DNA from: Lachnospiraceae bacterium
GTDB taxonomy: Bacteria; Bacillota; Clostridia; Lachnospirales; Lachnospiraceae
Direction of reading: 5' to 3'
Assembly (NCBI GenBank): GCA_015057005.1
Contig: SVFF01000009.1
Span: forward strand, 1 to 64,000
Length of the DNA stretch: 64,000 nt
Shown here: positions 60,650 to 63,637 of the stretch, piece by piece
How the letters are laid out: every line of letters begins with the position of its first letter
Numbering within the stretch: the first letter of the stretch is position 1
The notes under the pieces: model-generated
Database searches by the model: none
What the model was told of the DNA's origin: nothing
The model's input: the letters and a program-made list of their open reading frames with translations, nothing else
Translations under genes and position numbers: made by a program

Positions 60650-60718
60650 AAAATCAGCCCCTGTCCCCGGTCACATGTATAAGGTTACATGAAAACCGAA
60701 GGCAGGGGCTGATTTTTA
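60650..60718. terminator. Bidirectional terminator between convergent genes
   Basis: AAAAATCAGCCCCTGtccccGGT...ACCgaaggCAGGGGCTGATTTTTAT. Confidence 0.8.
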
Positions 60719-61579
60719 TATGCTGTCTTCCACCTTTGCATCCAGAGGCTTTTCCAGGCAGGCAGGATTCTGCATGAACTTGCGCAGCTGGCGAAGAGAA
60801 AGTGCAAAATACAGTCCGTCGCAGAAACGCTCGTCAGATACCATGCCAAAGCCCATGTGCTTCTGGGGAGAAATCTGGTCACCATGGTGTACGGAAGCGA
60901 TACGCTGCTCCTTTCCCATTGCGAAGAACAGGCCTGTGGTACCGAAATTGTACACATGATGAAAAACGTGATTGATGCCCAGGGACTTCAAGTTGGTGAC
61001 AAAGAAAGAGGTGTGGAAGGGGCTCAGTTCAATGATAGCCTTGGGCAGGATGTTGTGCTTGTCCATCCACATCAGGGTGTTGATCACCAGTTTGATAAAG
61101 GGACCGGGAATACGGTTCATTAAGGTGCGCAGAAGCTTGTCGGTGCCGTTTTCGCCTACACGCTTGGTGGTTTCTTTTTCAATGGCTTCGTTTATTTTTT
61201 CGGCTACTTCCAGGATGGTCTCGGTACCTTCAAAGCAGAGCTTGATGGTGGTGCCTACGCTGCCGTCCTGCAGCGTGGGGTGTACCACGAAGCTGACCCA
61301 GATCTTGGGTCTGGCATAAATTTTGCCGTTCATGACAAAACGGTTCAGCTGAGGGCGAAGGGCGATCAGGCGCACAATGGCGGCAATGATAATGTGCATG
61401 TAACCAAGCTTGATGCCCTCTGCTTCCTTTGCTTTGATATAAGCGTCCATAGGCTTGCAGGCGAAAGTATCCTCGTACATATTCATGGAGTCGGTACGGG
61501 TCTTCATAATGTAGGGCATGATCTTCTGCATGGGCTCAAGGTCGCGAATGACGCGGCCATCCGGGCGTTTTCCAAACAT
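60716..61579 (-). CDS. 2-oxoacid dehydrogenase E2 catalytic-domain-like acyltransferase lacking a lipoyl domain
   Basis: LSPFHTSFFVTNLKSLGINHVFHHVYNFGTTGLFFAMGK...FGMVSDERFCDGLYFALSLRQLRKFMQNP CAT/E2-like active-site region. Confidence 0.75.
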   Translation of the reverse strand: MFGKRPDGRVIRDLEPMQKIMPYIMKTRTDSMNMYEDTFACKPMDAYIKAKEAEGIKLGYMHIIIAAIVRLIALRPQLNRFVMNGKIYARPKIWVSFVVHPTLQDGSVGTTIKLCFEGTETILEVAEKINEAIEKETTKRVGENGTDKLLRTLMNRIPGPFIKLVINTLMWMDKHNILPKAIIELSPFHTSFFVTNLKSLGINHVFHHVYNFGTTGLFFAMGKEQRIASVHHGDQISPQKHMGFGMVSDERFCDGLYFALSLRQLRKFMQNPACLEKPLDAKVEDSI

Positions 61580-61712
61580 AATTTCCTCTTTTCCTGACAA
61601 ATAAGTCAATGTAAAGTTTATAAAAAATTTATAATTTTATGTCATTATACTTGATTTGTCAAAAGCGGACAAGGTTTTTAGACAAAAAAACCGAAAAAGG
61701 ACTAAAAAAGTG

Positions 61713-62191
61713 GTTGACTTAGGAAACTATATCAGAAAAGGCCCTGCCTGCCCCGGGACGCACTTCCACCGAAATACGCAAGCTTTTCGGGATTTTATGG
61801 ACGCATGAATTTTAAGAGCCAATTAGGCGCCCTGGTTCGAAACTCAGACCCACAGGGCATTGGCAAAAAAACGTCCCCAGAAATGTTTCCTAGAAAAATA
61901 ATGATGTACCATTCAAGAGACGGACACCAAAATTGCTATGTCTGAACGTACGTGAGTTTAGCAATTTTGGTGTCAAGCTCGTCGGCTGAATGGTACATCA
62001 TATATTTTTCAGGAAAGATTTATCGGCGTTTTTCTGCCAATGCCCTGTCGGTCCTCAGACAGTCTCACCACGGGCGCCGCTTTTTAAAATTCATGCGTCT
62101 TAAAATCCAACGAAAAACTTGCACGGGTATTTCTTGCGGAAGTGCGTCCCGGGGCAGGCAAGGTCTCTTCTGATACATTTTCCTGAGTCAC
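61713..62191. repeat. Giant (~479 bp) imperfect palindrome / long-hairpin element
   Basis: Collinear reverse-complement blocks between arms centred near 61952: GACT.AGGAAA, TGCCTGCCCCGGGACGCACTTCC, GACGCATGAATTTTAA, ACAGGGCATTGGCA, ATGATGTACCATTCA, GACACCAAAATTGCTA. Confidence 0.95.
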
Positions 62192-62227: not shown

Positions 62228-63637
62228 CTACAGCGGGAAATTGAAATATCTTCTGGCATTATGGTAGGAGATGTCGGTGACGATTTCTCCCAGGATATGG
62301 TAATCTGCGGGAAATTCTCCGTTTTCCACCCAGCCGCCTAAAAGATTGCACAGGATGCGGCGGAAGTATTCGTGTCTGGTGTAGGATAAGAAGCTTCTGG
62401 AGTCGGTGAGCATGCCCACAAAACCGGAGAGATTGCCCAGATTGGCCAGGGAGATCATCTGGTCCTGCATGCCGGTCTTGTGGTCGTTGAACCACCAGGC
62501 ACTGCCCTGCTGGATCTTAGCGGCTGCGGAGGAGTCCTGGAAACATCCGATGATGGAACCGATGGCCTGATTGTCCTGCGGGTTCAGACTGTAGATGACA
62601 GTTTTGGGAAGCTCATCAGTCACATTCAGGGCGTTCAGGAAATCAGCCAACTGTGCAGAAGGAGTGTGGTTATTGATGCAGTCAAAACCGGTGTCGGGGC
62701 CCAACTGTAAAAATCTTGCGGTATTGTTGTCTCGCTTACAGCCGTAATGCAGCTGCATTGCCCAATTCCGTCTGTGGTATTCACGGCCCACAAAAATCAG
62801 GAATGCAGTCTTGAATTTCAATTCTTCTTCCCGGGTCACTGTCTGACCGGAAGTTCTTTTGGCAAAGATTGCTTCCACCTCAGCTTCAGAAGCAGGCTGG
62901 TACATGACATATTCCAGACCATGGTCAGACACGCTGCAGTCTCTTTGGGCAAAATATTCCATGCGGGCTTTCAGCGCATCCTTTAAGGCTGCGAAGGTAG
63001 TGATGGCGGACATATCCGCTGCAGCAGCCAGTTTTCCCAGATACTCCAAATAATCAGCCTTTTCGATGTTCATGGCCTTGTCCGGTCTCCAGGCGGGGAG
63101 TACTTTCACATCAAAAGAGGAATCGGCTGCAATTTGCTCATGCCACTCCAGGGAATCGACGGGATCATCGGTGGTGCAGAGCAGTGTCACGTTGCTGCGT
63201 TTGATCAGATTGCGGACACTCATGGAAGGGTGACGCAATTTCTCGTTACAAAGTGTCCATACTTCGTCAGCAGTCTTTTTGTTGAGCACGCCTTGGTAGC
63301 CGAAATATCTTTGCAGTTCCAAATGGCTCCAGTGGAAGAGGGGGTTGCCGATGGCTTTGCCCAGGCACTCTGCCCATGCGCAGAATTTCTCGTAGTCGGA
63401 AGCGTCACCTGTAATATACTTTTCCTCCACGCCGCAGGAGCGCATAAAGCGCCATTTGTAGTGGTCGCCGCCCAGCCAGACCTGGGTGATGTTGTCAAAC
63501 TGACGGTCCTCGGCAATCTCTCTGGGGTTGATATGGCAGTGATAATCCAATATGGGAGTGGCTGCCGCATAATCGTGGTAGAGCTTACGGGCGGTTTCGC
63601 TCTCCAATAAAAAGTCCTTGTCCATAAATGCTTTCAT
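62228..63637 (-). CDS. uxaC: Glucuronate isomerase
   Basis: ATPILDYHCHINPREIAEDRQF...WLGGDHYKWRFMRSCGVEEKYITGDASDYEKF...HLGPDTGFDCINNH-type region (LQLGPDTGFDCINNH). Confidence 0.96.
   Translation of the reverse strand: MKAFMDKDFLLESETARKLYHDYAAATPILDYHCHINPREIAEDRQFDNITQVWLGGDHYKWRFMRSCGVEEKYITGDASDYEKFCAWAECLGKAIGNPLFHWSHLELQRYFGYQGVLNKKTADEVWTLCNEKLRHPSMSVRNLIKRSNVTLLCTTDDPVDSLEWHEQIAADSSFDVKVLPAWRPDKAMNIEKADYLEYLGKLAAAADMSAITTFAALKDALKARMEYFAQRDCSVSDHGLEYVMYQPASEAEVEAIFAKRTSGQTVTREEELKFKTAFLIFVGREYHRRNWAMQLHYGCKRDNNTARFLQLGPDTGFDCINNHTPSAQLADFLNALNVTDELPKTVIYSLNPQDNQAIGSIIGCFQDSSAAAKIQQGSAWWFNDHKTGMQDQMISLANLGNLSGFVGMLTDSRSFLSYTRHEYFRRILCNLLGGWVENGEFPADYHILGEIVTDISYHNARRYFNFPL

Follow-up and report, generated by a model that had tools for sequence, protein, structure and literature searches.

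The window, a stretch of 64,000 nt, carries a very large palindrome in the gap between two minus-strand genes, uxaC and an E2-like acyltransferase gene (Table 1). A sequence-only reading had described an intergenic palindrome of ~479 bp here, with collinear arms, several perfect blocks and no credible ORF. The palindrome is real, and when its DNA was compared with its own genome by blastn, it matched itself in antisense over 61715-62190 at 77% identity (E = 6e-88). The outer arms are 53 nt each and 89% complementary, with further collinear inverted blocks inward at 61800-61815/62084-62099 and 61847-61873/62027-62053, and the innermost at 61876-61922/61980-62026 and 61923-61938/61959-61974. The perfect blocks and centre quoted in that reading match the sequence, and the arms do align collinearly when computed, with the refinement that they are ~77% alike overall and interrupted by internal loops and bulges. 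These interruptions are not simple decay, because other copies of the element keep them. No ORF with a known domain was found inside the palindrome, and the distance of 37 nt given for the uxaC stop codon agrees with the end of that gene at 62228.

Table 1. Features of the palindrome locus in the window
Feature	Positions	Strand	Basis or remark
Whole palindromic element (copy c01, 476 bp)	61715..62190		Inverted-repeat blocks, folding, blastn
Left outer arm	61715..61767		Common to c01 and copies c02-c07, absent from other copies
Right outer arm	62138..62190		Pairs with left outer arm
Core	61770..62133		Common to 18 full-length copies; conserved internal loops, 119 consensus pairs
Apical 158 nt	61872..62029	+	Source of covariance model R1
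Apical loop TGTCTGAACGTACGTGAGTT	61939..61958	+	Local form of conserved motif TGTYTGAGC..GCGAGTT
uxaC, glucuronate isomerase	62228..63637	-	Pfam UxaC, E = 2e-202
E2-like gene, 2-oxoacid dehydrogenase acyltransferase domain	60716..61609	-	Downstream of palindrome
T-runs directly beyond hairpin base	61684..61709	-	Putative terminator-like tail for uxaC
Promoter-like site TTGACA-17-TAAAAT, candidate for downstream gene	61634..61662	-	11/12, consensus match only

Folded on the minus strand, the palindrome reaches -298.1 kcal/mol, ~22 sd (z = -21.9) below 100 dinucleotide shuffles (mean -146, sd 6.95), none of which reached this energy. Past the hairpin base, the minus strand reads TTTTTTAGTCCTTTTTCGGTTTTTTT and then the promoter-like site; a simple scan for terminators did not detect a short stem followed by a T-tail here. 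An assembly artefact, which the earlier reading had raised against its own proposal, was ruled out: the family is also found at ~20 further sites on many contigs of the source genome, and single-contig genomes, among them G342, G251, and G292, carry its hairpins too. The palindrome had no match in the phage or plasmid collections.

A dispersed family in the source genome and its relatives

The source genome contains at least 21 diverged copies, including the window's own c01, which are 66-96% alike. About 20 sites in this identity range were recovered when the palindrome DNA was searched against its own genome, and a motif search added one more copy, of a different subfamily (C3:496428, L275). 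The hairpin of this second subfamily, at C3:496428-496446 with its flanks, has the exact apex TGTCTGAGCGCAGCGAGTT and stems unrelated to those of the window. Aligned copies have a core of ~365 bp in common. The outer stems of c01-c07 resemble one another, and those of the remaining copies are each different, yet every outer stem pairs with itself. Arm lengths from unanchored local alignment overran the true ends, and boundaries were not drawn from them. Copy c20 (C3:320831-320941, L044) has lost most of the core; it is a short hairpin that consists of the outer stem and a small remnant of the core, an internally deleted derivative. The same DNA query gave no comparable match in 36 congeners or in 24 other genomes of the order.

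The covariance model R1, built from the apical 158 nt and, as a long-hairpin model, able in principle to pick up unrelated hairpins, had matches in 22 of the 397 genomes sampled from the family, representing 20 of 334 genera, and in 6 of the 296 genomes of the order sample, including other families, with the source genome counted in both. Nearly all aligned R1 matches carry the apex TGTYTGAGC..GCGAGTT or a close variant, and relatives often occur in several copies per genome. The apex motif was counted 93 times in G664, 62 times in G421, and 24 times in the complete genome G342, with essentially none in the reversed control; in the phylum sample it was present in 16 of 400 genomes (control 0). 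Stems differ freely between relatives, while the apical motif and internal loops are common to them. The centre of the apex, GCGNAGC, is presumably of the very stable GNA DNA mini-hairpin type, and GNRA-like apex forms, such as GCGTAAGC, are also present. The family is probably under-counted, because its hairpins often sit at the contig ends of draft genomes, where palindromes would break the assembly.

The hairpin of G664 matched the Butyrivibrio fibrisolvens plasmid pNP243 by blast, the sole plasmid match among the relatives tried, and from this match G664 is probably a Butyrivibrio. Further afield, the same apex was observed in Ca. Aminicenantes MAGs, in shorter hairpins with internal loops, and in 87 viral or proviral IMG/VR contigs (L102-L181), many of which fall into a small number of recurring types. 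In IMG/VR, some matches lie in clear stem-loops with internal loops, and others lack a clear stem. We treat the possible homology of these hairpins to the family as a lead. Outside Aminicenantes, the matches to our first loop pattern (L045, L049, L056-L058) have no such hairpin and look like chance.

Stem pairing is maintained while stem sequence changes

Among 18 copies from the source genome, 97.7% of cells pair across the 119 consensus core pairs, and 51 of these pairs show compensatory double changes. Covariation, by which the sequence-only reading had proposed to recognise a functional RNA, was 0.289, as against 0.116 in shuffles and 0.04-0.063 with partners slid. Whole stem blocks have been swapped, as with TGTACCATTCA/TGAATGGTACA in c01 and TGCGGGATTCA/TGAATCCCGCA in c10, and the internal loops, bulges, and apex are largely kept among copies. 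The folded form is maintained: stem positions change along with their partners, and the loops keep their sequence.

In copy c08, the right arm has been converted so that it is exactly complementary to the left arm of the same copy. The youngest copies of G664 mostly carry one-sided differences (24% two-sided), whereas 73-76% are two-sided in older copies. Double changes were adjacent more often than under random placement, a comparison in which rate differences along the hairpin are not controlled. The arm conversion in c08 and the adjacent double changes are what template switching in quasi-palindromes does, a process that is reported both to give rise to hairpins and to maintain them (PMC8794818). 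Copying between arms would by itself remove the conserved loops, and therefore something also keeps these. At C21:52925-53078 and flanks in G400 (L065), the outer stem looks nearly perfect over roughly 90 bp, a run of pairing that selection acting on individual pairs would hardly account for.

Mobility and gene-end position

Movement is shown in the sister genome G664. In one of its subfamilies, near-identical copies occur at several places with different flanks and with the ends AAACTTCGCACTTG...CAAGTGCGAAGTTT. Terminal inverted repeats are present (ACTTCSCACTTG ends), with 126 matches to the terminal repeat compared with 2 in the control, and 5 of 19 elements have exact flanking direct repeats of 7-8 bp, as 8-bp target duplications, where 0.41 would be expected from shuffled and re-paired flanks. 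In five congeners, polA and coaE are close neighbours; in G664, a ~290 bp palindrome that begins ~4 nt after the polA stop separates them, and a second palindrome follows coaE. Shorter palindromes, of 40-173 bp, share the ends of the elements and appear to be internal deletions. This anatomy suggests a MITE whose transposase would be of the DDE type.

No autonomous partner was seen among the listed G664 terminal-repeat matches, and no mobilising enzyme was found. On C1 of G664 (L219-L228), we observed ~10 inverted hairpin pairs, separated by 400-1000 bp and with their 5' sides turned towards each other, some of which flank one gene (coaE; a hexapeptide-repeat protein). The genes between the pairs were rejected as transposase candidates, as they encode CoaE, a hexapeptide-repeat protein, or products with no known domain.

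In the source genome, neither target duplications nor clean ends were visible; the window's element is entirely an inverted repeat, and shared ends were found in c01-c07 only. In the comparison for an empty site between aspartase and guaB, where c08 lies, a strong match came from a single congener, at 70% identity; the congeners are too distant for such a comparison at the window's copy. We infer mobility in the source genome from the family relationship with the mobile elements of G664, because the ends are too diverged here to show duplications. The suggestion that the palindrome is a MITE-like element is supported: the element is short (476 bp), multi-copy (at least 21 copies), dispersed, and without an ORF, and its relatives in G664 have terminal inverted repeats, target duplications, and filled and empty sites. 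The sequence AAGTGC/GCACTT was seen in the outermost stems of c02 and c07 (AAGTGCGCCTTTAAAC) as well as at the ends of the G664 elements (CAAGTGCGAAGTTT); its presence in both genomes could be a coincidence or could mark a common end signal.

Copies in the source genome favour gene ends. With gene context taken from stretches of sequence by a simple ORF caller, 11 of the 17 copies have convergent genes on either side, compared with 10 of the 102 remaining gaps in these stretches (Fisher 2.4e-6), and no copy lies between divergent genes (Fisher 0.04). Typically, a copy is at most 60 nt from a stop codon. The G664 copies show no enrichment between convergent genes, yet most adjoin a stop codon. 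In the window, the palindrome probably ends the uxaC transcript, judging from its position and the T-runs, and the next gene would be transcribed separately from its own candidate promoter beyond the hairpin. The transcription insulator that had been among the suggested roles is better described as a putative terminator, which fits the position, the T-runs, and the candidate promoter just beyond.

Interpretation and relation to known systems

We consider it likely that the window's copy is a non-autonomous mobile palindromic element, of the foldback, MITE-like kind, that sits at the 3' end of uxaC and acts as its gene-end hairpin. Elements of the family would be moved in trans by a putative transposase, and a copy once inserted would serve as a gene-end hairpin. 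Transcription of uxaC would meet a very stable hairpin and then T-runs, and stop, with the next gene starting from its own promoter beyond. Two processes together probably account for the maintained fold: template switching, by which one arm is copied from the other, and selection for retention of the loops. As a tentative extension, this may be a widespread form of hairpin mobile DNA in which invariant loops are recognised in the folded state by a putative factor and the arms drift by mutual re-copying; the Ca. Aminicenantes and proviral apex hairpins would then belong to one superfamily across phyla.

More doubtful is a purely mutational origin of the pairing, in which MITE-spread palindromes are kept paired solely by template switching between arms and the fold has no function. 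The correction of the c08 arm, the blocks of adjacent double changes in excess of random (with the reservation on rates given above), and the long outer stem in G400 are consistent with such a process, as is the known capacity of template switching to create and maintain hairpins. However, loops, bulges, and apex are conserved across copies and genera, whereas arm copying would erase them, and the gene-end position of the copies also argues against it.

A structured non-coding RNA, with one strand transcribed and working as RNA (in protein binding, as an RNase III substrate, or as a regulator) and selection on that RNA giving the compensatory changes, appears unlikely. It would account for the strong covariation with conserved loops and bulges and for the GNA- or GNRA-like centre of the apex. 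Under selection on one RNA strand, G.U should be tolerated and A.C should not. The motif strand in G664 does have a mild excess of G.T over A.C (52 vs 29), but the source genome has no strand bias, at 94 vs 97 in a pair set chosen without strand preference and 7 vs 13 for Watson-Crick-only pairs, all in mismatch cells that are not independent, since the copies are related. These counts give no support for one-strand RNA selection and are not disproof of it either. The motif reads on the plus strand and both neighbours on the minus, with no plus-strand promoter found, and the G664 copies have transposon ends. A known RNA family was ruled out by the absence of any match in an Rfam covariance-model search. 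Of the earlier proposal of an undescribed structured RNA family, the covariation, the conserved loops, and the empty Rfam result agree with what we observed, and the strand bias that would mark RNA is missing.

An element of the REP/REPIN type, which a RAYT (Y1/HUH) transposase would move via its single-stranded hairpin, is very improbable: the family is palindromic, intergenic, and multi-copy, with the inverted pairs of G664, but its size and ends are unlike those of REPs (PMC3733652), target duplications of 8 bp would not be expected if transposition were of the HUH type, and the RAYT/IS200 enzyme was ruled out as mobiliser, as the Y1 transposase domain PF01797 is absent from the source genome, complete G342, G445, and G271, and is equally common in genomes without the element.

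The mobile gene-end hairpin that we favour has partial counterparts among known systems. Among bacterial MITEs, ERIC and YPAL each fold into a single long hairpin, with models of 115-168 bp (PMC2267715). Like them, the family is intergenic, multi-copy, palindromic, without an ORF, and foldable on both strands; unlike them, it is ~480 bp long with locus-specific outer stems, and its conserved apex and internal loops are common to genera whose stems no longer align. It resembles REP/REPIN-RAYT systems (PMC3733652, PMC3116915) in its extragenic, dispersed, and mobile palindromes, but REPs measure 20-40 bp and carry a GTAG or CGTC tag (PMC3733652), and the family has neither a GTAG-tagged unit of this size nor a link to Y1 transposases. 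As with intrinsic (bidirectional) terminators, copies adjoin stop codons, lie mostly between convergent genes in the source genome, and, in the window, have T-runs beyond the stem, whereas the arms exceed 200 bp, the loops are conserved, and the copies are dispersed as a repeat family. Hairpins maintained by template switching (PMC8794818) likewise stay paired through multi-base double changes, and the long mitochondrial palindromes of Nematomorpha (PMC6649704) likewise have very long inverted repeats; both of these are single loci, and the family is instead mobile with conserved loops. We found no description of the motif or of long palindromic repeats in these bacteria in the literature, and the giant-hairpin family is apparently undescribed, as far as Rfam and the literature searched can tell.

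Palindromes of such size are expected, from work in E. coli, to be unstable in bacteria, and the family keeps dozens of them per genome despite this. Its dispersed copies of different ages offer a natural experiment on how hairpins originate, keep their pairing, and shorten. If the loops are a recognition site, a protein that recognises them should exist. The repeats also matter for annotation, as they split operon genes (polA, coaE) and often lie at draft contig ends. The apex motif was observed within ~140 bases of contig ends on contigs C8, C12, C23, C29, and C42 of G912, and at L047, L051, and L052.
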